Positions 10,718 to 29,951 of a DNA stretch of 34,564 nucleotides are shown here, piece after piece; position 1 is the stretch's first letter, and the number at the start of each line of letters is the position of its first letter. This DNA comes from Acetomicrobium sp. S15 = DSM 107314 (lineage in GTDB: Bacteria > Synergistota > Synergistia > Synergistales > Thermosynergistaceae), in NCBI RefSeq assembly GCF_016125955.1, contig NZ_JADEVE010000025.1, positions 1 through 34,564 on the forward strand. Direction: 5' to 3'. A program made the translations under genes and the position numbers. Below the pieces are notes generated by a model. That model was not told the DNA's origin. It made no database searches and worked only from the letters and a program-made list of their open reading frames with translations.

Positions 10718-12226
10718 TTAGATTTCTTCCCGTGCATCGCCCGAAATCTCTTTGGGGAGCTTACGAGACTGCAGCCATGTAAATAAAGCCACGACCACCG
10801 ATAACAGCAGGAAGGCCAGCGCTATGGGCCGCTGTACCAAAATGGTCCAGCTACCGCCAGAAAGTATCAAAGAACGACGCAACGACGCCTCCGCCATAGG
10901 GCCAAGAATAAGGGCTAAAAGCAATGGCGTGACTGAAAACCCCAACATCGGGAGAATGTAACCGATTACTCCGAATATCAGCATCAATAAAACGTCAAAC
11001 AGGCTGTTGTTCACAGCATATGCCCCAACTATGGAAAAGACGCCGATGGCCGGCAAAAGATAGTAGCGCGGTACCCCGACAGCCAGAGAAAATATGCGGA
11101 TAAAATATCTGCCGAGGAGCAACATGATAATATTCACAGCCAGAAACCCTATCATCACAACATAAACATATTCCCCATGCCGCTCGAAAAGTAGGGGGCC
11201 CGGAGTTAGTCCTTGGATCATCAAGGCGCCCAAAAGCACGGCGGTCACCGAGTCACCGGGTATGCCAAGCGTCATTAGAGGGATAAGAGCTCCACCGCAC
11301 ACGGCGTTATTCCCCGATTCAGAGGCAGCCACTCCATCGAGTTCGCCGGTCCCAAAGCGCTCCGGGTGCTTAGAGCTACGCCTTGCCTCTGTGTAACTCA
11401 AAAAAGACGCTATCGCGGCACCAGTGCCAGGAATAGCACCGATGCCCGTTCCTATCAGGCCACTCTTTATAATTGTCTTAGCATGATTCAAGAGCAATTT
11501 TAGATCAAAACGCGATCGCTTCACGGCCTCCGCACTGATATGCAACTCTTGTTGCACCTGCTGTAATATCTCGCCTATTGCGAAGAGTCCTATCAACACA
11601 GGTACAAGAGGAATCCCGGCGGTCAAGGCATCAATGCCAAAGGTAAAGCGAGGAAGTGCCTCGAGAGGATCAAGACCGATGGCGGAGACTATAAGGCCGA
11701 GGGCTGCTACCATGAGACCTTTCACCAGATTTTTGCTCGCCACTCCAGCTACGCACGCCGTCAGACCGAAAACAGCCAGAGCGAAGGTCTCAGGAGGGCC
11801 GAAGCGCAGGGCAAAGGCAGCGATAACTGGAGCCACAACCAAAAGTATGGAACCGCTGATCACGCCGCCTATGACCGAAGCCCACAGGGCCATAGAAAGA
11901 GCTTCATATGCCTTACCCTGGCGCGCCAGAGGATAACCGTCCAAGACTGTGGCAGCAGAGGCCGGCGTCCCAGGCACTCCTACCAGTATGGCCGATATGG
12001 AACCTCCATAGATTCCACCCGCATATACCCCTAATAAAAACAACATGCCAGTGTCCGCGGACATTTTGAATGTGAAGGGAAGCATCACCGCAACTGCCAT
12101 GGTGGCAGTTAGACCTGGCAAAGCTCCCACCACCATCCCTAAGGACACGCCCAATGCCATCAGGGTGAGGTTTTGAAATTGAAAGATTGCACCCACAGAA
12201 TGGGCTATGTATTCAAATTCTAACAT
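10718..12226 (-). CDS. tctA: Tripartite tricarboxylate transporter large permease, TctA family
   Basis: This 502-residue integral membrane protein is the large permease of a TTT carrier, which takes up carboxylates using a periplasmic binding protein and an ion gradient. It shows family signatures GVSLGMVVGALPGLTATMAV (residues 26-45), YAGGIYGGSISAILVGVPGTPAS and GTGIGAIPGTGAAIASFLSY, with about twelve membrane segments. ATG 12226 follows GAGGTGG. It lies between TctB and the 2-hydroxyacid dehydrogenase on the same strand. In Chromohalobacter a TTT system (SlcHFG) sits in the sulfolactate locus; that analogy is the reason to suspect a sulfonated substrate here. Confidence 0.95.
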   Translation of the reverse strand: MLEFEYIAHSVGAIFQFQNLTLMALGVSLGMVVGALPGLTATMAVAVMLPFTFKMSADTGMLFLLGVYAGGIYGGSISAILVGVPGTPASAATVLDGYPLARQGKAYEALSMALWASVIGGVISGSILLVVAPVIAAFALRFGPPETFALAVFGLTACVAGVASKNLVKGLMVAALGLIVSAIGLDPLEALPRFTFGIDALTAGIPLVPVLIGLFAIGEILQQVQQELHISAEAVKRSRFDLKLLLNHAKTIIKSGLIGTGIGAIPGTGAAIASFLSYTEARRSSKHPERFGTGELDGVAASESGNNAVCGGALIPLMTLGIPGDSVTAVLLGALMIQGLTPGPLLFERHGEYVYVVMIGFLAVNIIMLLLGRYFIRIFSLAVGVPRYYLLPAIGVFSIVGAYAVNNSLFDVLLMLIFGVIGYILPMLGFSVTPLLLALILGPMAEASLRRSLILSGGSWTILVQRPIALAFLLLSVVVALFTWLQSRKLPKEISGDAREEI

Positions 12227-12254: not shown

Positions 12255-12716
12255 CTAAGGAAGCACCACGCCCAAAACCCATCTGAACGAATAAGTCACG
12301 CTGAGGTCGAGGATCGAGGCAAAAAGGGCTATCTGCCACCACTTTCTGGCCCCCAAAAAGAAGGCTCCAATTACGAGGAACAAAAATGTGCTCAGCTCGA
12401 AGCCAATGATGCCCATTAACAAGTAATACAGAAAGAAGTTAACGAGCATAAACAGAAAGCGACGCAAGTTTAAAAATAGTGCCGTAGGCCTAAGGTTTTC
12501 GCCTTCGCGCAGTTTCTTCAACCACAAAAACGAGCTCTTGATCAAAAGTATTAAACTGAAGATCCCAAGGGCGATAGTCATGGTGTAAGGGAAATATTCC
12601 GGTCCCATGCCGCTCGCCATTGGACTTTCCATCACTTGGCTTGGAATTAAAAACCACAGTAAAACACTCAGCACTAAAGCAATAGAAGCATTTATGACAT
12701 CTGTCTTAGGGTTCAT
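12255..12716 (-). CDS. tctB: Tripartite tricarboxylate transporter small permease, TctB family
   Basis: A 153-residue membrane protein with four hydrophobic segments and the conserved MGPEYFPYTM near residue 40, a TctB signature. It completes the TTT carrier with TctA, whose start is 28 bases downstream, and TctC. ATG 12716 has GGAGG 7 bases upstream; a TTG one codon earlier is less likely. The binding-protein gene tctC is unusually separated from it by a sulfatase and its maturase, which implies that the enzymes and transporter serve one substrate. Confidence 0.9.
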   Translation of the reverse strand: MNPKTDVINASIALVLSVLLWFLIPSQVMESPMASGMGPEYFPYTMTIALGIFSLILLIKSSFLWLKKLREGENLRPTALFLNLRRFLFMLVNFFLYYLLMGIIGFELSTFLFLVIGAFFLGARKWWQIALFASILDLSVTYSFRWVLGVVLP

Positions 12717-12734
12717 CAATGATCCTCCTTAAAA

Positions 12735-12834: not shown

Positions 12835-14265
12835 CTACCCCCACCTGAGTTGCTGCGACCGGGAGCGATAGTTGCTTCGAATTAACCAATTTAGCATTAT
12901 CTGCATCAGCGCCTCTTTTCGGTCTGCGTAGCGCGGATCGTCCCACAGGTTGTTGAGCTCCTTGGGGTCGTTTTTCAAATCGAACAGTTGCCCGAAGGGT
13001 TCATCCAAGAAGTGAACCAACTTCCAATCTTTGGTCCTGACCATCGTCATAAATTCCGTTTCCTGTAAAATTGCGTCGCGGCTATGTTCGGCGAAAACAC
13101 ACTTATGCCCTTCGGTATTTCTGCCTTCCAAAGCCGGTACGAGGGACTCGGCCTCCATATTTGCAGGAATCTGAAGGCCTGCTAATTGCAAGATGGTTGC
13201 TCCTATATCTATTTGGCTATAGAGATTATCCAAACGCTGCCCTCCATCGAAACGCCCCGGAGACCAGATGATCGTCGGAACCTTAAGTATTTCGTCGTAC
13301 ATGGTCCACTTTTGTATATGACCATGATCTCCCAAACAATCCCCATGATCTGAAGTAAAAATCACCACCGCATTTTCCAAATAACCCTTTGCCTCAAGAG
13401 CTTGTAAGATCTCACCGATCTTCTCATCAATCATCGTCACATTGGCCAAATAGTACGCCCTCAAACGATGAAGTTGCTCCCGAGAAGGGTTCAACGAGAA
13501 AACAACTGAATCATGATCGATTTGTGAATTATGCTTCCGCAAAGCGAGAAACGGGGGCGGTTGGCTGGATAGATCTTTCTCGGATACTACAGGAATGGGC
13601 AAGTCTTTTTTCAAATAGGGTTCTGCATATCTAAAAGGAGGGTCATATGGCGGATGGGGACCAGGAAAGCCGATTTGCAAAAACAGGGGTGTGGTTTCGG
13701 GATAGCGATCGATCCACCACGTGGCCATACCACCCACAAACATGTCGGGATGCATATCTTCCGGCAATTCCCATTCAAATGCACCCATTCGCTCCCTATA
13801 ATCTTTTAGGTTTCGATACATTACGCGTCCAGGTTTCGGCAGACCTCTCGCGTGCAGAGCTTTGTCCCACTCGTCAAAAAAATATCTTCCTTCCAGATAA
13901 CGATCTTTGTTTTCCACCACGTAGCGCTCGTGGAAACCGTAGGGAGCCTGATAGGGGTAAGTGTGCATCTTGCCGATGTTTACACAGTGATATCCGCTTT
14001 TCGCCAAATCCTCTACCCAAGTTCGAGGCCATTCATCTGCGTTTTTAAAGACGCCGGCAGAGTGAGGATAACCTCCCGTAAACAGGGCAGCACGAGATGG
14101 CGCACAAGAAGGCGCGGCGCAAAAACAATTATTCAGAGCTACCCCCTCTTTGACGAGGCGATCCAGATTAGGCGTATCCATGTAGGGAAATCCCAATGCT
14201 TGAATGGTGTCGAAGCGCTGTTGATCGGTCATGATTAAAATTATGTTGGGACGATCATTCGGCAT
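12835..14265 (-). CDS. Cys-type formylglycine sulfatase, cytosolic
   Basis: The 476-residue enzyme belongs to the type I sulfatases, which hydrolyse sulfate esters using a formylglycine made from an active-site cysteine. The modification motif CAPSR is at residues 54-58, the metal-binding TDQQ at 13-16 and the second metal region FTSDHGDCLGDHG in the C-terminal half. There is no signal peptide (MPNDRPNIILIM), so it acts in the cytoplasm on an imported substrate. Because the site is Cys-type, an anaerobic radical-SAM maturase is required or an aerobic enzyme elsewhere; the maturase is the gene directly upstream. ATG 14265 follows AAGGAGT. It is encoded inside a TTT transporter operon next to a SuyAB-like lyase, so its ester is probably a small organic acid sulfate. 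The substrate is not determinable from sequence. Confidence 0.9.
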   Translation of the reverse strand: MPNDRPNIILIMTDQQRFDTIQALGFPYMDTPNLDRLVKEGVALNNCFCAAPSCAPSRAALFTGGYPHSAGVFKNADEWPRTWVEDLAKSGYHCVNIGKMHTYPYQAPYGFHERYVVENKDRYLEGRYFFDEWDKALHARGLPKPGRVMYRNLKDYRERMGAFEWELPEDMHPDMFVGGMATWWIDRYPETTPLFLQIGFPGPHPPYDPPFRYAEPYLKKDLPIPVVSEKDLSSQPPPFLALRKHNSQIDHDSVVFSLNPSREQLHRLRAYYLANVTMIDEKIGEILQALEAKGYLENAVVIFTSDHGDCLGDHGHIQKWTMYDEILKVPTIIWSPGRFDGGQRLDNLYSQIDIGATILQLAGLQIPANMEAESLVPALEGRNTEGHKCVFAEHSRDAILQETEFMTMVRTKDWKLVHFLDEPFGQLFDLKNDPKELNNLWDDPRYADRKEALMQIMLNWLIRSNYRSRSQQLRWG

Positions 14266-14338: not shown

Positions 14339-15601
14339 CTATGGTTGTCTTTCCTGGCAACACTTTTTATACTTCTTGCCACTCCCACACGGGCAAGGGT
14401 CGTTGCGCCCCGTGTTCTTCCAAATGGAGCTATACAATCCTCGCATCTCCTCTTGGATAAAGAGGGGCGATCGCTTCTGCCTTATCATTTGGGCAATCTC
14501 TCGCATAAACACAGCAGTATAGTTAAAAAACTGTTTATACCCGGCGCATAGATAGTTTAAGCCACCCTCGCCATTTGGCGTTTTTAAAAAGCGGTCTTTT
14601 GGACAGCCACCATTGCAGATAAAGCGCACGTCGCAATCACGGCAATACCGTGGCAAGGCATCTCGCTTATTCTGACCGAACTTCTTCTGCTTGGGCGATT
14701 CGACCATGTCGATGAGGGCCTCTTCTCGAATGTTGCCCAACCTATACTCAAGAGAGACAAAATGGTCGCAGGAATACAGATCACCGTTATGCTCCATAAC
14801 CATGGCTCTGCCACAGGTTTCACCAAGGGTGCAAAGGGCAGGACCAACTCCCATCCAAAGCCCAACGCATTCCTCAAACATCCGAACAAAAACCCGACCG
14901 ATGTCGTTTTTAACCCACTCGTCGAAAACAGCAATCAAAAAGCGGCCGTAATCTTCAGCCCTTACGGTGCGAGGGCTCACTTTCACATCTTCCATGTGTT
15001 CTACTATGGGAATGAATTGAATATACCGCACGCCTTCGTCCTTGAAGAAGTGGTAGATCTCAAGTGGGTGCATAGTATTTAAATTATTAACAGTACATAG
15101 GACATTGCATTTTACTCCATGTCCTTGCAGCAAATGGAGCCCACTAAGAACCCGTTTGTGCGTTGAGCGCCCTTCCTTATCGGATCGGTATGAGTCGTGT
15201 AATTCCGCCGGACCATCTATGCTAATGCCTACGAGGAAATCGTTTTCCCTGAAAAAATCGCACCATTCGTCGTTTAACAAGATGCCGTTGGTTTGAAATG
15301 CGTTTTCTATCCGCCAGCCTTCCGGTACATACTTATTTTGCAGTTCGACGGCCCTTTTAAAAAAATCTATCCCCCTCAAGGTGGGTTCGCCCCCTTGCCA
15401 TGCGAAGGAAACGACAGGGCCGGGCTGATATTGAATGTATTGCCGGATGAAATCCTCTAAGAGCTCCTCGCTCATCCTAAAATTTTTCTCTTGTGGATAT
15501 AGATGTTTTTTCTCTAAATAAAAGCAATAGTTGCAGGACAAGTTGCAAATAGGGCCGATAGGCTTAGCCATGACATGAAATGGCGAGGTGGCGTTTTTCA
15601 T
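14339..15601 (-). CDS. Anaerobic sulfatase-maturating enzyme (radical SAM) with SEC-C tail
   Basis: This enzyme oxidises the sulfatase cysteine to formylglycine without oxygen. The 420-residue protein starts FHVMAKPIGPICN and has the radical-SAM cluster cysteines at 19, 23 and 26 (CNLSCNYC). A SPASM-type region holds two more Fe-S clusters (CTLGETC, CDHF, CRDCDVRFICNGGCPKDRF). A C-terminal zinc-binding SEC-C motif follows (GRNDPCPCGSGKKYKKCC). I chose ATG 15601, which gives the usual family N terminus; a GTG four codons earlier is possible. It lies immediately upstream of the Cys-type sulfatase in the same operon, the standard pairing, and 106 bases after the strong hairpin following tctC. 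Confidence 0.93.
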   Translation of the reverse strand: MKNATSPFHVMAKPIGPICNLSCNYCFYLEKKHLYPQEKNFRMSEELLEDFIRQYIQYQPGPVVSFAWQGGEPTLRGIDFFKRAVELQNKYVPEGWRIENAFQTNGILLNDEWCDFFRENDFLVGISIDGPAELHDSYRSDKEGRSTHKRVLSGLHLLQGHGVKCNVLCTVNNLNTMHPLEIYHFFKDEGVRYIQFIPIVEHMEDVKVSPRTVRAEDYGRFLIAVFDEWVKNDIGRVFVRMFEECVGLWMGVGPALCTLGETCGRAMVMEHNGDLYSCDHFVSLEYRLGNIREEALIDMVESPKQKKFGQNKRDALPRYCRDCDVRFICNGGCPKDRFLKTPNGEGGLNYLCAGYKQFFNYTAVFMREIAQMIRQKRSPLFIQEEMRGLYSSIWKNTGRNDPCPCGSGKKYKKCCQERQP

Positions 15602-15706
15602 CTTACCAATCACCCATCTTTAAATGAATAAACCGCTTTAAGCATTTGTTATCTATGTATCATTAAACTATATCATCTAATAGAACATGACTGATCTTTT
15701 TGTTGT

Positions 15707-15773: not shown

Positions 15774-16751
15774 CTACTTCTTCACAAACCCTAACTTCTC
15801 CATGAGGGGTTTGTATGCGCCATATTCCTCCTTAAGACTGGAGATCACTTCATCGGGTGTGCGATACTGAATGGTGAGCTTCATACGAGCCATAGCCTCT
15901 ATAAACTCGGGGTCTTCAAGCGACTGCTTGAAAGCTGCGTGAAGCTTTTCCACCACATCGTCTGGCGTCTTAGCTGGAACGAGTAACATCTTCCAGACGC
16001 TGAATTCTGGCAGGTCGAAACCCTGTTCTTTAAACGTGGGGACATCAGGCGCCTCGGCAAATCGCTCCGGCGAGAAAATGCCCAGTGCCCTCAAGTTTCC
16101 TGCCTCCACTTGGGGCATACACTCCGTAGGATGCGAGGTAGCGGCATCTACATGGCCGCCAACCAAAGCGGTAATAGCCGGGCCTCCGCCTTCAAACGGC
16201 ACAGCCTCCGCTTTCACGCCAGCAGAGTCAAAGAGAGCGGCTGGGGCCAAATGCGTAAGGCCACCAGCACCTGAAATGCCATACTTAATAACCTTGCCGG
16301 TTTTTTTGGCATCATCGATGAGGTCTTGCGTCGTCTTCCATGGAGATTTAGCGTTGACGGTTAGTATTATTGGTTCATAGCTGAGGCCTATAATGCCGCG
16401 GAAGTCGTCAACGCTGTACTGGACGGGGCGAGTCAACGGAACTGTGGTAAAGGCACCGGCTGCTATCTGAAGCACCGTGTAGCCATCGGGATGTGCTCTG
16501 GCCACCTCCGCCGCCCCGATTGCTCCATTGGCTCCGGGCCTATTCAACACGACCACGCTTTGGCCCAAATATTTCGGCGCAACCGACGCCAGTGCGCGAG
16601 TCATTAGGTCTGAGCTGCCTCCAGCTGCATAAGGGCAAACGATCGTCACCGGTTTAGTGGGAAAACCTGCAGCATTTGCCGGCATCTGTCCCTGAGCCAT
16701 CACGCCGAAGGCCAAGACTAAAACCGCACAACTCGTCAAAAATCGCCTCAT
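15774..16751 (-). CDS. tctC: TTT transporter periplasmic binding protein, TctC family
   Basis: This 325-residue protein begins with a signal peptide (MRRFLTSCAVLVLAFGVMA, likely cut after PANAA). The mature part has TctC/Bug signatures: FPTKPVTIVCPYAAGGSSD, VVVLNRPGANGAIGAAEVA and YTVLQIAAG. It would capture a carboxylate in the periplasm for TctAB. The start ATG 16751 follows AAAGGAGATGAAGG. It is the first transporter gene after the GntR regulator and is followed by a strong hairpin, as expected when the binding protein is needed in excess of the permeases. By locus context the ligand may be a sulfonated hydroxyacid such as sulfolactate, or a sulfate ester. Confidence 0.94.
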   Translation of the reverse strand: MRRFLTSCAVLVLAFGVMAQGQMPANAAGFPTKPVTIVCPYAAGGSSDLMTRALASVAPKYLGQSVVVLNRPGANGAIGAAEVARAHPDGYTVLQIAAGAFTTVPLTRPVQYSVDDFRGIIGLSYEPIILTVNAKSPWKTTQDLIDDAKKTGKVIKYGISGAGGLTHLAPAALFDSAGVKAEAVPFEGGGPAITALVGGHVDAATSHPTECMPQVEAGNLRALGIFSPERFAEAPDVPTFKEQGFDLPEFSVWKMLLVPAKTPDDVVEKLHAAFKQSLEDPEFIEAMARMKLTIQYRTPDEVISSLKEEYGAYKPLMEKLGFVKK

Positions 16752-17579: not shown

Positions 17580-18734
17580 CTAAGCGCTGCGGTAGAGTTT
17601 GGTAAGGACGAATTCGCGGTGACCCAGCGCTTCGGCCGCAGTAAGCCTGCCATTTATCGTACGGTTCATAACATCTGAGATTGCGTCTGCCGCCCGATCC
17701 AAGGACAACTCGCGGCGGATAATTCCGCTTAAGTCTACGTCTATATGCTCGGCCATCTCTACCACCGTCCGCGGATGGGCCGATATTTTGACTACGGGAA
17801 CGATGGGATTGCCCACGACATTGCCCTGTCCGGTCGTAAAGAAATGCAACACGGATCCAGCCGCTGCGGTCAGTGTCACCATTTCCGCCGCCGCGGAGGA
17901 CGAATCCATGAAAAACAGACCTTTGTCGGTCGGCGTTTCAGCCGGCCCCAATACTCCGACGATAGGACATGTGCCGGTTTTCTGTACGTTACCGAGCCCT
18001 TTTTCCTCTATTGTGGAAAGCCCTCCGGCAATGTTGCCCTGTGTCGGCTGAGAGCCAAGGAGGTCTACGCCTTGGGACTCGATGAATGCCATATAGTCGC
18101 CATAAACTTTCATAAATTTTTCCTTAAGCTCTGGGGTAGCCATGCGCTCGGCTATGAAATCTTCAGCGCCGGTGAGCTCCGAAGTCTCGCCGAAGATCAC
18201 GGTGCATCCAGCGTTCACAAGCCTGTCAATCAGCCTACCGAGGGCAGGGTTTGCAGCCAGGCCAGATGTCGTGTCAGATTCTCCGCACTTAATGCTAATC
18301 GTAAGCTCACCCAAAGATATAGGCTCCCGTTTTATCTCTGATGCGTCCTGCAAAAGCATTTTTGCTATCCTTGATGCTTTTTCTATAGTCTTAAGATCTC
18401 CATTATGCTCAATGCTCAAACCTTCTACAGGTTTCTTCGCCACCTTAGAAACGGCATCCACGATCTTGTTAGTCCAGTTGGGCTCTATGCCTATGATGAC
18501 GGCAGCCGCCACATTTGGGTTGGAAGCAGTACCTATGAGCGTTTTGAACGTAAGCTCCAGATCCTCGCCGAATTGCAATCTTCCATATGGATGAGGGAGG
18601 GACAAGGTGCCATGAATCACCCGCGAAGTCACCTCAGCAGCAGTGTTAGATATGTCATCGACCGGCAGTATTATTACGTGGTTTCGCACGCCCACACGGC
18701 CATTCGGTCGCCTGAATCCCAAGAGCTCTGTCAT
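17580..18734 (-). CDS. suyB: UxaA-family large subunit, probable (2R)-sulfolactate sulfo-lyase subunit beta
   Basis: The 384-residue protein aligns by eye with the large domain of altronate dehydratase (UxaA): [15 protein letters not shown] (residues 6-20), [29 protein letters not shown] (149-166), [16 protein letters not shown] and [11 protein letters not shown]. It differs from sugar-acid dehydratases in lacking the usual His-x-His-Gly-Cys stretch near residue 50 (LSLPHPYGR here) and in having [18 protein letters not shown] near 276-293. I associate the latter with SuyB, the about 42-kDa subunit that cleaves sulfolactate to pyruvate and sulfite. ATG 18734 has GGAGGG 7 bases upstream and overlaps the suyA stop (ATGA). 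The split small/large arrangement and TTT neighbours also fit SuyAB. Altronate or another hydroxyacid dehydratase remains the alternative. Confidence 0.65.
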
Positions 18735-19027
18735 AGCCCGTCCCTCCATCTGAGCGATCTGATGTTGTGTATACGCACAAGTTCGCCTGTTTTGATATTA
18801 GAAGTGGCTATTCCGATAGGTCTATAGTATTCGATAACATTTGCGCCGGAAGAAATCTCTTTAAGGGCAATCTTATGTCCAATTGGTATGGTATCGAGGA
18901 CTTCGATTAAACCCTCAAACCCAACCTCATCGAGGGAAACGAAACCTACCCGCTCACCCGGGGCTATTTCTTCCACCGCAACACCCACATCATCACTCTT
19001 CACGTGAACCAAAACCTTGAATTTCAC
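18731..19027 (-). CDS. suyA: SAF-domain small subunit, probable (2R)-sulfolactate sulfo-lyase subunit alpha
   Basis: The 98-residue product is a lone SAF domain, the counterpart of the UxaA N terminus and of SuyA. It shows [20 protein letters not shown], the conserved [14 protein letters not shown] and the C-terminal HNIRSLRW. It would form the heteromeric lyase with the overlapping large subunit. The start is GTG 19027, with AGGGGG 7-8 bases upstream; the longer frame from a TTG at 19051 lacks a ribosome-binding site. It is the first gene of the locus and has a good promoter about 75 bases upstream. The SAF fold is secure, while the sulfolactate assignment rests on the split organisation and neighbours. 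Confidence 0.65.
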
Positions 19028-20552: not shown

Positions 20553-21635
20553 TTACTTCTTCCCGAAGACCGCCTCGAGCTGTTTGGCGATAGCGTCGCC
20601 CATTTCGGAAGTGGTGTTCGTTCCACCCAGGTCTGGAGTTCTTACGCGCCCTTCTTTAACGACAGCGGCTATAGCATCGACGACGCGCTTCCCCCACTCT
20701 TCAAGGCCAATGTGATCGAGCATCATGGCGGCTGCCCATATCGTGGCTATGGGGTTTGCCCTGATCATGCCTTTATATTTGGGGGCAGAACCGTGGATTG
20801 GTTCAAACATCGATGGAAATTCCTTCTCGGGGTTGACATTTCCGCCCGGGGCGAAGCCCAACCCACCTTGGAGCGTAGAGGCTAAATCAGTCAGAATGTC
20901 GCCAAAGAGATTAGAAGCCACTACGACATCGAAGCTCTCAGGTTTCCTGATCAAAAACATCGTCATTGCATCAACTAATACGTGCTCCGCTTCTACATCG
21001 GGAAATTCTTTGCTGACAGCGTTAAAGACCTCATCCCAGAAGACCATCGAATGCTTCAAGGCGTTCGATTTGGTTATTGAGGTTACCTTTTTCCTGCGCT
21101 TCCTCGCTAAGGAAAAGGCATATCGCATTACCCTTTCCGTCTCCCTACGGGTAAATACGCTCACCTGCATAACGACCTCGTGGGGCGTTCCTGGATATGA
21201 CCTGCCGCCGATATCTCCATATTCGCCTTCTACGTTCTCTCTTACGAAAACCATATCGATAGCTTTTTCTTCTTTAAGAGGATAAGGAGCACCAGGAAGG
21301 CGTTTGACCGGCCTTAAGTTCACATACTGGTCAAATCCGCGGCGGATAGCGAATATCAAGGTCTGGGCTCCTATGTGATCGGGGACTCTCGGGTCTCCAA
21401 TGGCACCCATCAAAAGGGCGTCAAATTTCTTAAGCGTATCAAGCCCATCTGCAGGCATCGTAACGCCATGCTCCAGGTAGTACTCGCATCCCCAAGGAAA
21501 TGACGTAAAATCCAAAGAGATATTTCCATCGAGCTCTTCCACAGTCTTCAGCACCTTAAGTGCCTCTGCCGTAATTTCCGGGCCTATACCATCACCGGGA
21601 AGCACTCCTATTTTGAAAACCTTCTTGCTCACCAT
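20553..21635 (-). CDS. Isocitrate/isopropylmalate dehydrogenase family, tartrate/D-malate dehydrogenase-like
   Basis: The 360-residue protein is an NAD-dependent beta-decarboxylating dehydrogenase, oxidising a 2-hydroxyacid and releasing CO2. Seen: GVLPGDGIGPEI at the N terminus, DALLMGAIGDPRVPDHIG, DQYVNLRPVKRLPGAPYPL, FVRENVEGEY, the metal-binding NLFGDILTDLAS and MFEPIHGSAPKYKG. The CEYYLEHGVTMPADGL and VPDHIGAQ stretches match tartrate/D-malate dehydrogenases better than LeuB or isocitrate dehydrogenase. ATG 21635 follows GGATGGTGAGAT. It is the last gene of a ten-gene minus-strand operon, with a terminator right behind it. Conversion of a D-malate-like acid to a 2-oxoacid would fit the pathway. 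Confidence 0.85.
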   Translation of the reverse strand: MVSKKVFKIGVLPGDGIGPEITAEALKVLKTVEELDGNISLDFTSFPWGCEYYLEHGVTMPADGLDTLKKFDALLMGAIGDPRVPDHIGAQTLIFAIRRGFDQYVNLRPVKRLPGAPYPLKEEKAIDMVFVRENVEGEYGDIGGRSYPGTPHEVVMQVSVFTRRETERVMRYAFSLARKRRKKVTSITKSNALKHSMVFWDEVFNAVSKEFPDVEAEHVLVDAMTMFLIRKPESFDVVVASNLFGDILTDLASTLQGGLGFAPGGNVNPEKEFPSMFEPIHGSAPKYKGMIRANPIATIWAAAMMLDHIGLEEWGKRVVDAIAAVVKEGRVRTPDLGGTNTTSEMGDAIAKQLEAVFGKK

Positions 21636-21680: not shown

Positions 21681-22643
21681 TCAACTACCACCTTGGCCCA
21701 ATCGCTCACTCAGGCATTTTATGATATCATCTGCCATCGTTTCAAGATCATAATCGGGTGTCCAGCCCCATTCTTTTCGAGCACAACTATCATCCAGGCT
21801 GTTCGGCCACGAATCGGCGATGGCTTGTCTCACCGGGTCCACATCGTATTCTATTTCAAAATCCGGGATACGCTCCTTAATTTCATCAGCTAACTCTTGA
21901 GGGGTGAAGCTCATGGCTGTCACATTGTAACCATTGCGGTGCACAAGCTTGCTCGGCTCGGCTTCCATAAGGGTGATGGCAGCCTTAACTGCATCGGGCA
22001 TATAAAGCATAGGCATCATCGTATTTGGCCTCAAATAACACGTATAACGTCTCTGGGTCAGGGCAGCGTAGAATATCTCCGTGGAATAATCGGTGGTTCC
22101 CCCGCCAGGCATGGAACTGCTCGAAATTACGCCCGGATAACGCACGCCTCGCGTATCTACACCGTATTTCTTGAAATAATAGTTGCACATCAGCTCGCCT
22201 GCCACCTTCGCTATACCGTATATTGTGGTTGGGCGCTGGATCGTATCCTGAGGCGTGTTGTCTTTCGGCGTTTCCGGGCCAAAGGTGGCCATAGAACTCG
22301 GGAAAAAGAGAGAGCAACCGTGCTCACGAGCTACCTCCAAAACGTTATACAACCCATCAAAGTTCACGCTCCAAGCCTTCTTGGGATCTGCTTCGGAAAT
22401 AGCAGAAAGCATGGCGGCTAAGTGATAGATCGTTCCTACATTGTACTTATCGACGGCTCCTTTGATCGACGAAACGTAGGTACAATCGACAACCTCACAA
22501 GGGCCGGATTCGGATATCTCGGCAGGTGGCTTACGCTTATGTATGCCGCACACTACGTTATCACCGCCGTACTTTTCCCTCAACGCTAAGGTCATATCAT
22601 ACCCTATCTGACCCGTCCCTCCGGTCACCAGAATCCTCTTCAC
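21681..22643 (-). CDS. SDR-type L-threonine 3-dehydrogenase-like NAD enzyme
   Basis: A 320-residue extended short-chain dehydrogenase with VTGGTGQIGYD at the N terminus, HLAAMLSAISEADP, SSMATFGPETP and the catalytic tyrosine-lysine pair in YGIAKVAGE. It also has RYPGVISS and PGGGTTDYSTEIFY, then DSWPNSLDDSCARKEWGW. These extended matches are typical of the SDR threonine 3-dehydrogenases, which form 2-amino-3-oxobutyrate. I prefer GTG 22643, which has GAGGGGG 9 bases upstream. ATG 22664, overlapping the preceding stop as ATGA, is the alternative and adds seven residues. Being within a hydroxyacid operon, it may oxidise another beta-hydroxy acid. Threonine itself is not assured. Confidence 0.82.
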   Translation of the reverse strand: MKRILVTGGTGQIGYDMTLALREKYGGDNVVCGIHKRKPPAEISESGPCEVVDCTYVSSIKGAVDKYNVGTIYHLAAMLSAISEADPKKAWSVNFDGLYNVLEVAREHGCSLFFPSSMATFGPETPKDNTPQDTIQRPTTIYGIAKVAGELMCNYYFKKYGVDTRGVRYPGVISSSSMPGGGTTDYSTEIFYAALTQRRYTCYLRPNTMMPMLYMPDAVKAAITLMEAEPSKLVHRNGYNVTAMSFTPQELADEIKERIPDFEIEYDVDPVRQAIADSWPNSLDDSCARKEWGWTPDYDLETMADDIIKCLSERLGQGGS

Positions 22644-22660
22644 GGGAATGCGCCCCCTCG

Positions 22661-23581
22661 TCATCTTTCAACAGTCTGGCGTTCCACCTCGCACAGCCTA
22701 TCCACGCCTATCATCCCTTCTATTTTCGCAATGACCTCATTATAGCGCGGCGCCTCAAACCCCACAAAGCCACCAGAAGTGGGCGCCCGTCCTTGTTCTT
22801 TGATCATTCTGTTGATGCTTAAGGCTGCGCCTATCGTAGCAACTATCGTAGTTATAGGATAGATAATTATTTGATAACCGAGACTCGAGATTTCCTGCCA
22901 TGTGAGGGTTTCTTGAATTCCCCATTTTGATCCATATCCAGCCATAGCAAGCAACGGCATATTTTCCGGCACGGCGTCCCTTACTCGCTTCATTTCGTCC
23001 ACATCACAAACCTGAGGCATAATAGCGTCTACCCCGACCTCAGATAGGGCGTTGACTCGTTCGAGCACGGCTTCTATTGTGCCGCCTTCTGCTGCTCTTC
23101 TGGCGTCTGTCCTTGCAATGATCATAAAGTTCTCGTCATTTCTTGCTCTGAGGGCATATCCCAGCCTCTCAATATGTTCTTTTAAGGGTACAATGTGTTC
23201 TTTCCCGGCATAATAATGAACGCGTTTCGGATAAACCTGATCTTCTATATGCATAGCGCTTATGCCGGCATTCTCATACTCCTGGACTGTGCGCATGATG
23301 TGCAAAGGATCTCCGAAGCCGGTATGCCCATCTACTATAAGCGGAATCTCCAAAAGACGCAGAGCCCTTCTGGCATTTTCGACTTGATCCAGAAGCGTCA
23401 AGAGCGGCTCGGTAGTCCCTAAGGCCGCGCCTGTCATCCAGCCGCCCATATAAGCGGCGTTAAATCCCAGCTCCTGCACCACGGAAGCAGTTACGGCATC
23501 ATAGCAACCAGGCGCTACCACCGTTTCACCGTTGTTCAAATGCTCTTTTAGAGAGCACCTTGCATTGCGAGGGCCTCTCAT
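22661..23581 (-). CDS. ICL/PEP-mutase superfamily protein lacking the KKCGH cysteine
   Basis: The 306-residue protein has the isocitrate lyase/PEP mutase barrel: VAPGCYDAVTASVVQELGF, IVDGHTGFGD (82-91), HIEDQVYPKR and IIARTDARR. Two hallmarks of true lyases are altered. The metal loop reads DGHTG instead of DGDTG, and the active loop reads KRVHYY instead of KKCGH, so the catalytic cysteine is missing. It may be a decarboxylase, mutase or hydrolase of the superfamily, or act on another substrate. ATG 23581 follows GAGAGGAATGAGGC. It lies between dctM and the SDR gene, while an intact paralogue is encoded earlier in the same operon (28298-29191). Confidence 0.85.
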   Translation of the reverse strand: MRGPRNARCSLKEHLNNGETVVAPGCYDAVTASVVQELGFNAAYMGGWMTGAALGTTEPLLTLLDQVENARRALRLLEIPLIVDGHTGFGDPLHIMRTVQEYENAGISAMHIEDQVYPKRVHYYAGKEHIVPLKEHIERLGYALRARNDENFMIIARTDARRAAEGGTIEAVLERVNALSEVGVDAIMPQVCDVDEMKRVRDAVPENMPLLAMAGYGSKWGIQETLTWQEISSLGYQIIIYPITTIVATIGAALSINRMIKEQGRAPTSGGFVGFEAPRYNEVIAKIEGMIGVDRLCEVERQTVER

Positions 23582-23609: not shown

Positions 23610-24890
23610 TTACATATAACCCAACAAACTTGGTAAATAAGAGGCAATTGCTGGAATGTAAGTTACCATTAACACGACCACAATAAGAGCTACTATAAAT
23701 GGCAATATCGGTTTTACAATATCATCAAATTTAATTTTAGCAATACTACTTACCACAAATAGATTTAACCCAACAGGTGGGGTAACTTGTCCTATAGCCA
23801 AATTTATCGTCATAACTATGCCAACAACTAGTGGATTGATATTTAAACTGCGCATAATTGGCAAAAATATCGGAGTAATCAATACTATACAGGCAATGGA
23901 ATCTAAAAACATGCCAGCTATAAGCAAGACAACGTTAAACAATAGTAAAATTAGATAAGGATTCTCCGTAATGGAAAGGACAAGGCTGCCTATCCTCTGC
24001 GGAACCTGCTCGCTCGCCAAAAACCACCCAAAGAACATGGCAGCCGCGATCAACATGAGGATGTTGGCGGTGGACTTTGCGGAATCCTCGGTCACTTTGA
24101 ATAGATCTTTCCATCTCAATTCGCGATACACAAACTTGCCAATTATTAACCCATACGCAGAAGCCACAATGGCCGACTCGGTCGGAGTGAAAACTCCGCT
24201 ATATATACCACCCAATATTATTATCGGCATTAATAATGCAGGAAAGGCATCAACAAAAGAAACAAAGAACTCTTTAAAGCTAAAAGACCCCTCGCCCACA
24301 TAGCCCTCTCTCTTAGAAAAATAATAATTGAGAACCATAAGCGCTACGCCCATCAAAATGCCCGGGAATATGCCACCAAGAAATAGCCCAGCTATTGAAA
24401 CTTCCGCATTGACTCCATACACAACCATTGGAATGCTCGGTGGTATTACTATGCCTATAGTTCCAGCGGCTGCGATCACCGCAGCAGAATATTTTCTATC
24501 GTAGCCCTTTTCTTCCATCGGAGGGATCATAATGCTACCAATAGCAGCTGCCGTGGCAGGCGACGACCCGGATATGGCGGCAAAAAACATGGAAGCGAGA
24601 ATGGAGACCATAGCAAGCCCGCCTGTAATAGCTCCTACAACAGAATATGCAAACCTGACCAACCTCTTAGAAATGCCGCCTCTCGTCATTATGTTCCCAG
24701 CGAGGATAAAAAATGGGATGGCCATCACGGGGAAAGAGTTGACACCTTTGACCATCATTTGAGGAGCTATCATCAACGGGACGGAAGTGCCAAAGAGCGT
24801 AGCAAATATGCCCGCTAATATCAGAGAGAAAGATATCGGTATCCCAATTAATAGAAATACAAAGAAAAACACAAAAGAAAGTAGCGCCAT
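23610..24890 (-). CDS. dctM: TRAP transporter large permease, DctM family
   Basis: The 426-residue membrane protein is the ion-coupled permease of a TRAP carrier. It shows GIPISFSLILAGI, the family stretches AISGSSPATAAAIGSIMIP and GTIGIVIPPSIPMVVYG, and INLAIGQVTPPVGLNLFV near the end, with about twelve membrane segments. ATG 24890 follows GAGGAG. It directly follows dctQ by 16 bases. With DctP and DctQ it should import the organic acid handled by the operon's hydratase and lyases. Confidence 0.95.
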   Translation of the reverse strand: MALLSFVFFFVFLLIGIPISFSLILAGIFATLFGTSVPLMIAPQMMVKGVNSFPVMAIPFFILAGNIMTRGGISKRLVRFAYSVVGAITGGLAMVSILASMFFAAISGSSPATAAAIGSIMIPPMEEKGYDRKYSAAVIAAAGTIGIVIPPSIPMVVYGVNAEVSIAGLFLGGIFPGILMGVALMVLNYYFSKREGYVGEGSFSFKEFFVSFVDAFPALLMPIIILGGIYSGVFTPTESAIVASAYGLIIGKFVYRELRWKDLFKVTEDSAKSTANILMLIAAAMFFGWFLASEQVPQRIGSLVLSITENPYLILLLFNVVLLIAGMFLDSIACIVLITPIFLPIMRSLNINPLVVGIVMTINLAIGQVTPPVGLNLFVVSSIAKIKFDDIVKPILPFIVALIVVVLMVTYIPAIASYLPSLLGYM

Positions 24891-24906: not shown

Positions 24907-25389
24907 TCAATTAGTTGCCTTTTGGTTAATGGTACAAATCAAGTGATAGGCAAAATTAACGGCAGACAGCAAAAAACCCAAGGGATAAGCAAAATAAACA
25001 TAGGCCATCGGTATTTGCATAGAAGGCGCAAGTTGAGCAAAAGTCCTCCTGGTTACGTCCCAACCAACTTTTGCGAGAATTAAAGCCATAAAGATGCAGA
25101 CGGAATAAGCTATAACAGTAATAACCTTCTTTTTGCTAAAACTAAGCCTGCTCACAAAATATTCCACCCCTACGTGGCCAAGCTCCTTCACGGAAACGGC
25201 GGAGCCCAGAAAAACGACCCATACGAAAAGAAAGCGCGCGAGCTCTTCTGTCCAGCTCAGTGGCAATTTGAAAACATAACGAAACAAGACTTGGATCAAA
25301 GTAACTATACTCATAATCGTAAAGAGGGGCACTATAATCAAAATGACCATTCTATTTAGCTTATTAATAGCCATATTAAAGGCGTGCAC
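24907..25389 (-). CDS. dctQ: TRAP transporter small permease, DctQ family
   Basis: This 160-residue protein has four hydrophobic segments and the DctQ pattern FRYVFKLPLSWTEELARFLFVWVVFLG (core LSWTEELARFLF) followed by GAV/GSAVSVKELGHVGVEYF. It links the binding protein to the large permease. The start is GTG 25389 with AGGTGG 7 bases upstream; no ATG with a comparable site is nearer. A strong hairpin separates it from dctP. Confidence 0.92.
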   Translation of the reverse strand: MHAFNMAINKLNRMVILIIVPLFTIMSIVTLIQVLFRYVFKLPLSWTEELARFLFVWVVFLGSAVSVKELGHVGVEYFVSRLSFSKKKVITVIAYSVCIFMALILAKVGWDVTRRTFAQLAPSMQIPMAYVYFAYPLGFLLSAVNFAYHLICTINQKATN

Positions 25390-25470: not shown

Positions 25471-26454
25471 CTATTTGGATGTAGCTATTATTTCGTTAAA
25501 AACATCTCCAAACTTCGGTCCGTACTTATCGTAAACCGGTTGAACGGCCTTCTTGAATGCGGGAATATCGGGATTCTCGACAAATTGAACGCCTTTATCT
25601 TTTGCCTCTTGCAAATATTGTTTATCCCTCTCCGCTGATAAGTTTCTCTCATAAGCACCTGCTTCGATGGCGGCCTCTTTAAGAGCTTTTTGTTGGTCGG
25701 GAGTCAACCTCTCCCAAACCAGTTTGCTTATTATCAACGGCTCAGCTGTGTACAAGTGACCCGTAAGGGAACAATGTTTCTGCACTTCGTAAAATCGCGA
25801 TTCGATCAAGTGAGCCAGTGGGTTTTCTTGACCGTCAACCACTCCAAGTTGCAATGCCGAATAAAGTTCACCGAAAGAAATCGGCGTAGGAAGCGCTCCC
25901 AACGCTTTGAACGTGTCGATGCTCACGGGGCTTTCTGGAACGCGAATTTTAAGCCCCTTGAGATCATCCGGCGTATGGATCGGCCTAACGTTGTTCGTGA
26001 TGTGCCTAAACCCATTTTCCCAGTATGCCAAAATCACCAGCCCGACGCCCTCAACCTTTTTGGCCACACGCTCACCAACAGGACCATCTAAGATGGAGTA
26101 TGTCTGTTCTCTGGTAGTGAATATGAAAGGCAAGTCGAACACTCCGATGAGCGGTTCAAAGTTAGACACGATCATCGAAGAAGTGAGGACCATGTCGATC
26201 GTGCCAAATTGCGCTCCCTCTGTGCTCTCCCTTTGCGGCGCCAAAGAGTCCGAAGGGTAGACCTGCACCTTGACCTCGCCACTGGTTTTTTGCTCAACCA
26301 ATTCAGCGAATTTTAGTGAGCCAAGTTGGTAGTGATGGGTGGGAGCACCCGTATGGCTCAGCTTCAGGAGAACCTCCTTAGCCGAAGCTCCCGAAGCAAA
26401 AAGCCCCAATACAAAAAAACTGAGAACTAATATCACGGCAAATGACCTCTTCAT
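25471..26454 (-). CDS. dctP: TRAP transporter periplasmic binding protein, DctP family
   Basis: The 327-residue protein has a signal peptide (MKRSFAVILVLSFFVLGLF, probably cut after GASA) and a DctP fold. Recognisable stretches are LKLSHTGAPTHHYQLGSLKF, VQVYPSDSLAPQRES, FDLPFIFTTREQ, LKGLKIRVPESPV (with the substrate-carboxylate arginine) and GELYSALQLGVVDGQENP. It captures an organic acid in the periplasm. ATG 26454 follows GGAGGTGTC. The partner permeases follow after a hairpin. The ligand is likely a C4-C6 carboxylate by operon context. Confidence 0.95.
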   Translation of the reverse strand: MKRSFAVILVLSFFVLGLFASGASAKEVLLKLSHTGAPTHHYQLGSLKFAELVEQKTSGEVKVQVYPSDSLAPQRESTEGAQFGTIDMVLTSSMIVSNFEPLIGVFDLPFIFTTREQTYSILDGPVGERVAKKVEGVGLVILAYWENGFRHITNNVRPIHTPDDLKGLKIRVPESPVSIDTFKALGALPTPISFGELYSALQLGVVDGQENPLAHLIESRFYEVQKHCSLTGHLYTAEPLIISKLVWERLTPDQQKALKEAAIEAGAYERNLSAERDKQYLQEAKDKGVQFVENPDIPAFKKAVQPVYDKYGPKFGDVFNEIIATSK

Positions 26455-26525: not shown

Positions 26526-27017
26526 CTAAAGAAGGTGCTGCTTTGCGTACTCGATTAAGCCGCCTGCTTCTGCTATTTCTTTGGCCAGCCGCGGCATGGG
26601 GCTGGCTTTAAACTTGAGGCCGCTGGTAACGTCCTCTATAGTTCCGCTTTCCAGGTCAACTGAAAGTTCGTCCCCATCCCCAACGGCATCCACTGCTTCC
26701 GGTGCTTCCAATATGGGAAGACCTATGTTGACACAATTCCGGAAGAATATCCTGGCAAAAGATTTGGCAATGACACAGGAAATGCCCAAACCTTTAAGGG
26801 CAAGCGGCGCGTGTTCTCTCGAGCTGCCGCACCCGAAGTTCTCCTCAGCCACCACGATGTCTCCTGGTTTAGCACTTTTGGCAAAATCGGGGCGGATGTT
26901 TTCCATACAGTGTCTACCTAATTCTTTGGGATCCTGTAGGTTTAGGTATTTCGCAGGTATCACAGCGTCCGTGTCCACATCCCTGCCGAATTTCCAAACA
27001 CGACCCTCGATCTTCAT
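26526..27017 (-). CDS. LeuD-type hydratase small subunit (3-isopropylmalate/dimethylmaleate dehydratase family)
   Basis: This 163-residue swivelling-domain subunit belongs to the aconitase superfamily. It shows GRVWKFGRDVDTDAVIPAKYL at the N terminus, the serine loop FGCGSSREHAPLALKGLG, and SFARIFFRNCVNIGLP. With the large subunit, whose stop it overlaps by four bases (ATGA), it forms a hydro-lyase that isomerises or hydrates a dicarboxylate. No leuA or typical leuB is present, and the operon carries a TRAP importer and two ICL-family proteins. A catabolic role such as dimethylmaleate or citraconate hydration is therefore more likely than leucine synthesis. Confidence 0.88.
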   Translation of the reverse strand: MKIEGRVWKFGRDVDTDAVIPAKYLNLQDPKELGRHCMENIRPDFAKSAKPGDIVVAEENFGCGSSREHAPLALKGLGISCVIAKSFARIFFRNCVNIGLPILEAPEAVDAVGDGDELSVDLESGTIEDVTSGLKFKASPMPRLAKEIAEAGGLIEYAKQHLL

Positions 27018-28276
27018 GAAAGTACCTCCTCTGGGCTCCCTATGCGTCCCAACACGCCAGAAGCGGCCGTTACTGCTGGGTTAGCGAGATAAACTTCACT
27101 TTTTGGATGTCCCATCCTGCCGATGAAGTTTCGATTGGTGGTAGAGATTGCCTTTTCGCCCTCAGCGAGCACACCCATATGCCCTCCTAAGCATGGTCCA
27201 CATGTTGGCGTGCTGAAAGCAGCGCCGGCATCCAAGAAGATCTCTACGAGGCCTTCTTTTAAGGCATCTTTGTAAACGCGTTGCGTGGCTGGTATGACAA
27301 TCATCCTGACATGAGGATGAACCTTTTTGCCTTTTAGCACGGAAGCCGCTATCTTTAAATCTTCCAACCTGCCATTTGTGCACGAGCCGATTACAACTTG
27401 ATCTACAGATATACCTCTGAGCTCGCTCACGGGCTTGACGTTTGCCGGGCTTGATGGACAAGCTACCAAAGGCTCCATATCGTCCACATCTACCCGTATC
27501 TCTTGAGCAAAGTGAGCATCTGGGTCGCTGACCTCAGGGACAAACGCCTTTTTCGCCTTCGGTTTGACGTATTCGATGGTTTTTTCATCTGGCTCGATAA
27601 AGGCCGTTTTTGCCCCGGCTTCAACCGCCATATTGCACATGGTAAACCTGCCATCCATCGAAAGCTCTCTTATGGCAGCGCCTGAAAATTCGATAGCCAT
27701 ATACCTCGCTCCATCAACCCCGATCTCGCTTATTGCTGCCAACACCAGGTCTTTGCCGCCGACCCATGGGCGCAGTTTTCCGCTGAAGACAAATTTGATC
27801 GTTTCTGGCACACGAAACCAGAGTTTGCCTGTTGCCATAGCCACGGCCGCGTCGGTGCTGCCGATACCTATGCCCAGTGCACCCGCGGCACCATATGTGC
27901 ATGTATGAGAATCGGCACCGACTATCAAGTCTCCTGGCAAGGTCAACCCCTCTTCCGGGAGAAGTGCGTGTTCAATTCCCATCCTTCCGATTTCGTAATA
28001 ATGCGTTATTCCATGTTCGCGGGCGAATCCTCTAAGAAGCTTTGAATTTGAGGCCGATTGCACGTCTTTGTTTGGCGTAAAGTGATCGGGCACCAGGGCT
28101 ATTTTGTCTTTATCGAACACGGTTTTTGCACCAATTTTCTTGAATTGCTCTACAGTTAGAGGAGAGGTTATGTCATTGCTCAAGACCAAATCCACATTGG
28201 CAAAGACGAACTCCCCTGCTCTTACATCTTTACCTGTATGCTTTGAAAATATCTTTTCGACCGCAGTCATGCCCAT
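27014..28276 (-). CDS. LeuC-type hydratase large subunit (aconitase superfamily)
   Basis: The 420-residue protein is the Fe-S subunit of the same hydro-lyase. The three cluster cysteines are in SCTNGR (about residue 300) and CGPCLGG (about 360). GADSHTCTYGAAGALGIGIGSTD is the substrate-cluster region (core DSHTCTYGAAG). The length is that of the short archaeal/Thermotoga-type LeuC, which also includes homoaconitase and dimethylmaleate hydratase DmdA. ATG 28276 has GGGGGG 9 bases upstream; a second ATG two codons on is possible. Upstream is the KKCGH lyase gene, so hydration followed by C-C cleavage is the obvious sequence of reactions. Confidence 0.9.
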   Translation of the reverse strand: MGMTAVEKIFSKHTGKDVRAGEFVFANVDLVLSNDITSPLTVEQFKKIGAKTVFDKDKIALVPDHFTPNKDVQSASNSKLLRGFAREHGITHYYEIGRMGIEHALLPEEGLTLPGDLIVGADSHTCTYGAAGALGIGIGSTDAAVAMATGKLWFRVPETIKFVFSGKLRPWVGGKDLVLAAISEIGVDGARYMAIEFSGAAIRELSMDGRFTMCNMAVEAGAKTAFIEPDEKTIEYVKPKAKKAFVPEVSDPDAHFAQEIRVDVDDMEPLVACPSSPANVKPVSELRGISVDQVVIGSCTNGRLEDLKIAASVLKGKKVHPHVRMIVIPATQRVYKDALKEGLVEIFLDAGAAFSTPTCGPCLGGHMGVLAEGEKAISTTNRNFIGRMGHPKSEVYLANPAVTAASGVLGRIGSPEEVLS

Positions 28277-28297: not shown

Positions 28298-29191
28298 TCA
28301 ATCGGCTGCGCTTCTCCCCGTGGCGTATTTGCGCTCCTTTTCGCGGATCGTCGGCAGGCCTACGAGCTCATTAAACTTGTCGAAGGGTATCATGCGCTCG
28401 AGCATCCCGGCAGTGGTGCCAGTTTTTTTAAGCTCATTCATGAGATCCAAAACCGCTTTAGCTTCGACATAAGTAGAAGAAACTGGGTATATGGCTATGT
28501 TGTAGCCTATTTCCTGTAGCTCTTGAGCAGACAAAAGAGGGGTTCTTCCGTGCTCTATCATGTTGGCTAAAACCGGCACTTTGAAGCTTGATGTGATCTT
28601 TTTCATCTCTTCTACCGACTCGGGAGACTCGACGAAGATTATGTCGGCACCCGCTTCCTCGTAGGCCTTGGCTCGCTCTATAGCCGCATCGATACCGAAG
28701 TTGGTCCGCGCGTCTGTACGAGCCATTATCATGAAGTCATCATCAAATCTGGCATCGCAGGCTGCTTTGATCTTACCGACCATCTCCTCTGTCGATATCA
28801 CTTCTCTACCGAGCATGTGACCGCACTTTTTGGGAGCCACTTGGTCCTCTATCTGAATGCAAGCCACTCCTGCCTTTTCGTAGAGGCGCACCGTCCTTTG
28901 CACGTTTATGGCGTTGCCGAAGCCCGTATCGCCATCGGCTATAACGGGAACACTTACAGCTTCGACAATGTTAGCTGCCCTAAAAGCCATCTCAGTTTGT
29001 GTTAAAAGCCCTACATCGGGTTGACCGAGCACGCTGGCCGATGTGCCGTAGCCTGTCATGTAAACAGCTTCAAAACCCGTCATTTCGATGATTTTAGCTG
29101 TGAGGGCATCGTGAGTTCCTGGTGCTACCAATATTTGGTTACGAGACAGAAGCTCCCTTAAGCGTTTTGCAATCTTGTTCACCACGTCCAT
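28298..29191 (-). CDS. ICL/PEP-mutase family lyase (2-methylisocitrate or 2,3-dimethylmalate lyase-like)
   Basis: The 297-residue enzyme carries intact lyase motifs: VAPGTHDALTAKII, metal-binding ADGDTGFGN (86-94), IEDQVAPKKCGH with the catalytic cysteine at 123, and MARTDARTNFGIDAAI. Such enzymes split a substituted malate or isocitrate into two smaller acids, for example 2-methylisocitrate or 2,3-dimethylmalate. ATG 29191 has GGAGG 5 bases upstream; the longer frame from 29203 would cover that site. It is the first enzyme gene after the GntR regulator, just before the hydratase pair. Confidence 0.9.
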   Translation of the reverse strand: MDVVNKIAKRLRELLSRNQILVAPGTHDALTAKIIEMTGFEAVYMTGYGTSASVLGQPDVGLLTQTEMAFRAANIVEAVSVPVIADGDTGFGNAINVQRTVRLYEKAGVACIQIEDQVAPKKCGHMLGREVISTEEMVGKIKAACDARFDDDFMIMARTDARTNFGIDAAIERAKAYEEAGADIIFVESPESVEEMKKITSSFKVPVLANMIEHGRTPLLSAQELQEIGYNIAIYPVSSTYVEAKAVLDLMNELKKTGTTAGMLERMIPFDKFNELVGLPTIREKERKYATGRSAAD

Positions 29192-29225: not shown

Positions 29226-29951
29226 CTACAGAGCAGCGGGCTTTTCTTCAGGCAGAAGAGAGCCTGTATCTGTTTTTTTCTGGACGTCTGCGAAGCCCGT
29301 TTTACGCCGCACGAAGTAGCTGTAAGCGCGGTTCTCCTCGAGCGTCTTGATGTCAGCCCGGCGAAGTGCTTTAATCACTTCGTAGTGAAGGCGTGCCGTC
29401 TCTTCCAAGCTTTCGGCATGCTTTAAGTCTTCCATGATGCCCAAGAGGATTTGATAATGTATATTTGTCAGTATCTTCCGCGTAAGCCGTAAGCCCGATT
29501 TTCTCCACAAGTACTGGTGGAACTCTATATCCAACGCCATGAATTTGGGCAAGATCACCTCCCTAAGAGCTTCTTCCTGAGAAGAATCGACCATCTTATC
29601 GACGAGATGCACCAGGTACGCCAGATCATCCTCTTCTAACCTCTTTTTATTGATGAGGTCTTTGTATATCTGCATCTCCAAGAAAAAGCGCAAGTTGTAA
29701 AGTTCCTCCATCTCGTTCTCGGTGAAAGCAGCCACATAGCTGCCTTTTCGCGGAACTATCTTCACTAACCCTTTTGCCGCAAGCTCGCGCAGGGCCTCGC
29801 GAATTGGAGCCTTGCTCACCTCAAGCTCAATTGCAATGTCTGATTCGTTCAGCCAATCCCCAGGTTTGTACCTCCCAGAAAAGAGAATAAGGTCAATTAT
29901 CTTATCTCGCACGGCAGCGGAAAGGCTCTTATAGGCAAGCATATTTTCCAT
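29226..29951 (-). CDS. GntR-family transcriptional regulator (FCD domain)
   Basis: The 241-residue regulator has a winged helix-turn-helix (RDKIIDLILFSGRYKPGDWL, ALE/IALEVSKAPIREALRELA, GLVKIVPRKGSYVA) and a C-terminal FCD helical bundle (NLRFFLEMQIYKDLI, then DIEFHQYLWRKSG). It is first in the minus-strand operon, 34 bases before the lyase, and presumably regulates it in response to the imported acid. ATG 29951 has only a weak GGGA site. A 12-base palindrome sits just upstream and may be its operator. Confidence 0.9.
   Translation of the reverse strand: MENMLAYKSLSAAVRDKIIDLILFSGRYKPGDWLNESDIAIELEVSKAPIREALRELAAKGLVKIVPRKGSYVAAFTENEMEELYNLRFFLEMQIYKDLINKKRLEEDDLAYLVHLVDKMVDSSQEEALREVILPKFMALDIEFHQYLWRKSGLRLTRKILTNIHYQILLGIMEDLKHAESLEETARLHYEVIKALRRADIKTLEENRAYSYFVRRKTGFADVQKKTDTGSLLPEEKPAAL

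Follow-up and report, generated by a model that had tools for sequence, protein, structure and literature searches.

A cysteine-less clade of the PEP mutase/isocitrate lyase superfamily represented in a TRAP transporter operon of Acetomicrobium sp. S15

In PrpB, Glu188 and Asn210 are the residues for the distal carboxylate. In isocitrate lyase (ICL)-type cleavage, a metal-bound water and Asp58 deprotonate the 2-hydroxyl group, and the leaving carbanion is protonated by a cysteine or, in an earlier proposal, by Asp87 (PMC7609661). The Mycobacterium tuberculosis ICL mutants Asp108 to Ala (equivalent to Asp58) and Cys191 to Ser are inactive (PMC7609661). The oxaloacetate decarboxylase PA4872 binds Mg2+ and oxalate (PMC8100219).

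Against these systems we compared two superfamily members, P0001 and P0002, encoded in the window, the whole 34,564-nt stretch of Acetomicrobium sp. S15 DNA that was analysed (contig NZ_JADEVE010000025.1). Both belong to an operon of ten genes on a single strand, running from 29951 to 20553 with no gap above 81 nt, in the order GntR regulator, P0002, LeuC, LeuD, DctP, DctQ, DctM, P0001, SDR and tartrate-dehydrogenase-type gene (Table 1). The genes of P0001 and the L-threonine 3-dehydrogenase-like SDR overlap by 4 nt, and the latter is the sole copy in the genome at E<=1e-40. P0002 starts at ATG 29191 or GTG 29203. The genome holds four superfamily members, these two and two others.

Table 1 Features of the operon and of the two superfamily genes, in window positions.
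Feature	Position	Strand	Remarks
GntR/FCD regulator	29226..29951	-	Operon head
P0002, canonical Cys-type ICL-superfamily lyase	28298..29191	-	Both motifs intact
P0002 DGDTGFGN	28913-28936	-	Intact metal loop
P0002 KKCGH	28817-28831	-	Intact catalytic loop
LeuC-type hydratase large subunit	27014..28276	-	TIGR02083 662.9 bits, cut-off 610.65
LeuD/DmdB-type hydratase small subunit	26526..27017	-	TIGR02087 211.6 bits, cut-off 108.95
TRAP solute-binding protein DctP	25471..26454	-	
TRAP small permease, DctQ-like	24907..25389	-	By position and sequence
TRAP large permease, DctM-like	23610..24890	-	By position and sequence; matches DctM-like ORFs of related operons
P0001, Cys-less PEP mutase/ICL superfamily member	22661..23581	-	306 aa, open frame
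P0001 E58 codon	23408..23410	-	For invariant Asp58; D to E throughout the clade
P0001 DGHTGFGD	23309..23332	-	Altered metal loop; D84 = PrpB D85 kept, H86 = PrpB D87 lost
P0001 KRVHYY	23210..23227	-	Altered catalytic loop; K119 = K121 kept, V121 = C123 lost, H122 = G124
SDR-type L-threonine 3-dehydrogenase	21681..22664	-	PDB 7cgv/7ol1, 421/390 bits
Tartrate/D-malate-type dehydrogenase (isopropylmalate dehydrogenase family)	20553..21635	-	TIGR02089 495.1 bits, cut-off 470.4; PDB 3flk best

Elsewhere in the window, and judged by sequence only, we noted a Cys-type sulfatase with an SCAPSRA motif (12835-14265) and a radical-SAM protein like an anaerobic sulfatase maturase (14339-15613), set amid parts of a tripartite tricarboxylate transporter (15774-16751, 12255-12719, 10718-12226). 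An integrase-like (transposase) open frame lies at the window edge (71-1504). A UxaA/galactarate-dehydratase-type protein with the second and C-terminal domains only is encoded at 17580-18749, where a second GntR regulator adjoins.

The initial annotation had described P0001 as an ICL-superfamily protein with both the metal loop and the catalytic cysteine changed and P0002 as its intact paralogue, and the sequence bears this out. The P0001 frame is open only on the minus strand, the plus-strand translation of 22661-23581 being broken by stops. The two loops read D84-GHTGFGD-91 and K119-RVHYY-124, so that the K(K/R)CG catalytic cysteine motif of methylisocitrate, isocitrate and dimethylmalate lyases is missing (V121), as are their DxD metal loop and Asp58 (DGH and E58). 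Beyond these two motifs, D58 is changed to E58, E188 to Q190, N210 to M213 and N96 to H94, and the gating loop is longer by one residue, with H129. Alignment to known members showed that D84, E113, K119, R157 and the G46-G47 turn are kept, the residues that in those members bind the metal and the 2-oxo-acid part of the substrate.

Superfamily membership of P0001 is clear from Pfam, with 124.8 bits to PEP_mutase (PF13714; gathering cut-off 31.5), to which P0002 scored 172.4 bits. In NCBIfam, P0001 fell below the cut-off for PrpB (TIGR02317, 171.9 bits; cut-off 354.4) and for the PEP mutase/phosphonopyruvate hydrolase families (TIGR02320, 77.2 of 319.55 bits; TIGR02321, 81.4 of 374.4). An AlphaFold2 model built with the clade alignment gave a confident barrel (mean pLDDT 89, pTM 0.88), with residues 121-130 at pLDDT 79. 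The top Foldseek matches of the model were 3eoo, 4iqd and 1mum, methylisocitrate lyases being the most similar; the best structural match of the predicted fold is a lyase, but the fold does not decide the reaction.

A first scan of GTDB species genomes yielded two close relatives of P0001, one from a Dehalococcoidia MAG (L034, 44-46% identity) and one from a betaproteobacterial MAG (L035, 34% identity). A profile built from P0001 and these two proteins (A1) was used for a wider search, and it detected clade members in 18 of 294 Dehalococcoidia genomes, in 8 of 250 genomes of the order of L035 (Burkholderiales) and in 2 of 188 Synergistota genomes, namely the window's own and one of a different subgroup. 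The profile searches gave 28 distinct relatives, from Dehalococcoidia, Burkholderiales and the one other Synergistota genome, and close relatives of P0001 are rare. A more distant haloarchaeal member, WP_226778455.1 of Natrinema zhouii, carries no name beyond 'isocitrate lyase/PEP mutase family protein'; it was the one useful clade relative among the plasmids searched, and the viral contigs searched gave nothing. A DNA pattern search for DQVYPKR in about 800 genomes returned some false matches and no new clade member. The PDB holds no solved structure within the clade, and among open-licence papers we found none on a Cys-less, His-rich clade.

The superfamily tree that the initial annotation had proposed as a check was inferred by maximum likelihood from 85 rows, structurally known members included, and it placed P0001 in a separate Cys-less branch. 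All 30 sequences (29 clade members and Natrinema) formed this branch with support of 100/99, which stayed the same after the motif columns were removed. The branch is apart from PEP mutase/phosphonopyruvate hydrolase, PrpB/CPEP mutase, dimethylmalate lyase, petal death protein and PA4872 (3b8i), the last of which is a long branch. Within the clade, P0001 grouped with L034 and L053 (100/99), and P0002 fell in a Synergistota group whose orthologues are about 71-73% identical.

The earlier proposal that the variant had evolved within the same operon is thus not supported. P0001 is 46% identical to a Dehalococcoidia protein vs 34% to P0002, the tree speaks against a recent in-operon duplication of P0002, and a forced grouping of the two was rejected with p-AU 0.00013 on full columns. 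This rejection leans partly on the motif columns, since the same constraint on P0001 and the P0002 group gave p = 0.07 without them. The scatter of P0001-type genes over phyla suggests horizontal transfer. Base composition was also considered as a sign of recent transfer and gave no trace, the G+C (49.8%) and GC3 (49.2%) of P0001 lying inside the window's range.

The clade carries a distinct residue signature, which we defined in PrpB numbering by comparing its 29 sequences (P0001 included) with 52 Cys-type sequences. Position 58 is Glu in 29/29 clade members vs Asp in 52/52 of the comparison set; position 87 is Gly, His or Ala in all 29 (Gly in 27, Ala in one, His in P0001 alone) vs Asp in 51/52; and position 123 is Ala, Val or Ile in all 29 vs Cys in 52/52. 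The loss of C123 and D87 throughout the clade, when they are kept in 52/52 and 51/52 sequences elsewhere, argues that the motif changes of P0001 are not due to chance. Histidine replaces N96 in 28/29, G124 in 26/29 and R126 in 28/29 clade members, the last being Tyr in P0001; Phe replaces E188 in 26/29, and Met or Val replaces N210 in 27/29. One extra residue lengthens the clade gating loop, which also has a near-invariant additional His (H129 in P0001). Neither set varies at D85, E115 or R158, and K121 is invariant in the clade and present in 51/52 of the comparison set. Eleven pairs of closely related clade members have dN/dS values between about 0.03 and 0.17; together with these invariant core residues, this indicates that the clade is not decaying and that its proteins are maintained.

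P0001 shares the clade features, having E58, His at both 96 and 124, neither D87 nor C123, and a supported place in the branch, and is atypical at two sites, Gly87 to His and His126 to Tyr, each seen in one assembly only, so that reasoning from the clade may not be fully transferable to it. The Natrinema protein has E58, His96, a KR-M-HY loop, Met at 123 and a longer loop, yet it keeps Asp87 (DGDAGFGN). It therefore looks intermediate, which suggests that the change to E58 and the loss of the cysteine preceded the loss of Asp87.

The neighbourhoods of the relatives are unlike the P0001 operon, and the threonine-dehydrogenase-like gene is absent from every other clade neighbourhood examined; nor did the threonine dehydrogenase neighbourhoods in relatives show a link to a lyase. 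In the main Dehalococcoidia group, the clade gene adjoins a family III CoA-transferase gene (with a 4-nt overlap in L096). This CoA-transferase occurs in seven clade neighbourhoods, and CoA-transferases were also found near L085, which adds a mesaconyl-CoA hydratase-like protein, and near the L088, L092 and Natrinema members. The haloarchaeal gene (L098, 8959-9897) sits among genes for a CoA-transferase, an acyl-CoA dehydrogenase, a Rieske protein, an amidohydrolase and a UGSC protein, and the neighbours of some Burkholderiales relatives seem partly similar. Most clade members are without an adjacent intact paralogue; on the Dehalococcoidia contig L034, variant and intact ICL-like genes (1348-2241 and 3413-4270) are on different strands, with about 1.2 kb between them.

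In other Synergistota, P0002 orthologues have as neighbours either a family III CoA-transferase plus an HMGL-like lyase or TRAP genes (L104, L105). On one contig (L102, 4362-9529), the genes after the P0002 orthologue encode a family III CoA-transferase, an HMGL-like lyase and also LeuCD, a predicted arrangement that could serve citramalate breakdown; a close homologue of this HMGL-like lyase was not found in the window's own genome (best 44.9 bits). Two others (L104, 8061-9951; L105, 7748-9631) have a tandem pair of Cys-type ICL-like genes behind a TRAP transporter. As CoA-transferases are present beside both clade and P0002-type genes, they do not alone define the clade reaction. From predicted gene functions, carboxylic-acid catabolism is the theme common to the neighbourhoods.

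P0001 lacks both candidate acids, Cys123 and Asp87, has Glu for Asp58 and has E188 and N210 replaced. Both proposed catalytic acids are missing from all 29 members of a clade that is under purifying selection, which makes a changed chemistry likely, and P0001 probably does a different job from P0002; this part of the initial annotation stands, apart from the in-operon origin. We put at about even the chance that P0001 is an active metal-dependent enzyme on a 2-oxo or 2-hydroxy acid that works without a thiol acid, as a decarboxylase or in a retro-aldol reaction, which is favoured by the metal/oxo-acid half-site that is left and by the precedent of PA4872. In such an enzyme, a divalent metal would polarise the 2-oxo or 2-hydroxy group of its carboxylic acid substrate, and the adjoining C-C bond would be broken (or made), with decarboxylation or retro-aldol cleavage as the simplest routes. 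Water or an imidazole would protonate the carbanion, with no cysteine involved. At its distal end, the substrate would be without the carboxylate that E188 and N210 read in methylisocitrate-type lyases. Gene coupling suggests one of the two dehydrogenases as the maker of the substrate, so that P0001 probably uses what either the threonine-dehydrogenase-like or the tartrate-dehydrogenase-like enzyme makes, and the setting would be a catabolic pathway supplied by the TRAP transporter, in which P0002 and LeuCD also act. Tentatively, the clade may have gone further and swapped its carboxylate and thiol machinery for imidazole metal binding or acid catalysis, with a reaction new to the superfamily and the imidazole of P0001 moved from position 126 (Tyr) to 87 (His).

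Other readings of P0001 were weighed against this one. It is unlikely that P0001 is an active hydrolase or mutase without C-C lyase or decarboxylase activity, with a retro-Claisen reaction like that of oxaloacetate acetylhydrolase or with C-P chemistry. PEP mutase and phosphonopyruvate hydrolase likewise have K121 without Cys123, and a retro-Claisen hydrolase would fit the 4-nt overlap with a gene of the threonine dehydrogenase type, a family that makes a beta-keto acid; however, the two enzymes keep the DxD loop on their own branch (100/100), the NCBIfam scores given above are far below their cut-offs, and no phosphonate genes were recognised within the window. Rather unlikely, too, is a Cys-less lyase that cleaves another substituted malate by the retro-aldol reaction of the P0002 type, with His or water as the acid. 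The fold and core site agree with methylisocitrate lyase, and the operon also encodes a lyase and a LeuCD-type hydratase, but E188 and N210 are lost on top of C123 and D87, and ICL is inactive when the Asp58 equivalent or the Cys is mutated (PMC7609661), with the limit that P0001 has Glu at the former site and not a removal.

The regulatory partner that the initial annotation had offered as its other option, for example a non-catalytic subunit in a mixed tetramer with P0002, is quite improbable. The two genes share an operon, and the L034 contig has its intact paralogue near the variant; against this, in many genomes the relative has no intact paralogue next to it, P0001 and P0002 are only 34% identical, and the residues at the metal, Lys and Arg sites do not vary. 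A sequencing or assembly artefact is very improbable: His87 and Tyr126 are indeed unique to one assembly, but the loss of Cys123 and Asp87 is common to 28 other sequences, most from other phyla, and the P0001 frame is open with a G+C that agrees with the operon.

The names that pipelines give to such proteins (methylisocitrate lyase, 'isocitrate lyase/PEP mutase family') are probably wrong on the clade's reaction, because the residues that underpin a lyase prediction are missing. The clade offers a testable case of the rebuilding of a metal-enolate active site, in which the haloarchaeal relative suggests that Cys was lost before Asp, and it points to uncharacterised carboxylic-acid catabolism in Dehalococcoidia, Burkholderiales and Synergistota.

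Among known systems, the PrpB/2,3-dimethylmalate lyase/petal death protein group, to which P0002 belongs by type, provides the best structural and sequence matches to P0001, with a shared TIM-barrel, D85, E115, K121 and R158, but it has Cys123, Asp87, Asp58 (Glu in P0001), Glu188 and Asn210, all of which P0001 lacks. PEP mutase and phosphonopyruvate hydrolase resemble P0001 at positions 121 and 123 and differ in the intact DxD loop and the separate branch. PA4872 (3b8i) is like P0001 in having no Cys123, no E188/N210 and Gly at position 45, but unlike it keeps D58 and D87, lacks K121 and has Phe at 123. Natrinema zhouii WP_226778455.1 shares E58, His96, the KR-M-HY loop and the absence of Cys with P0001, and differs from it in the retained Asp87 and the longer loop.
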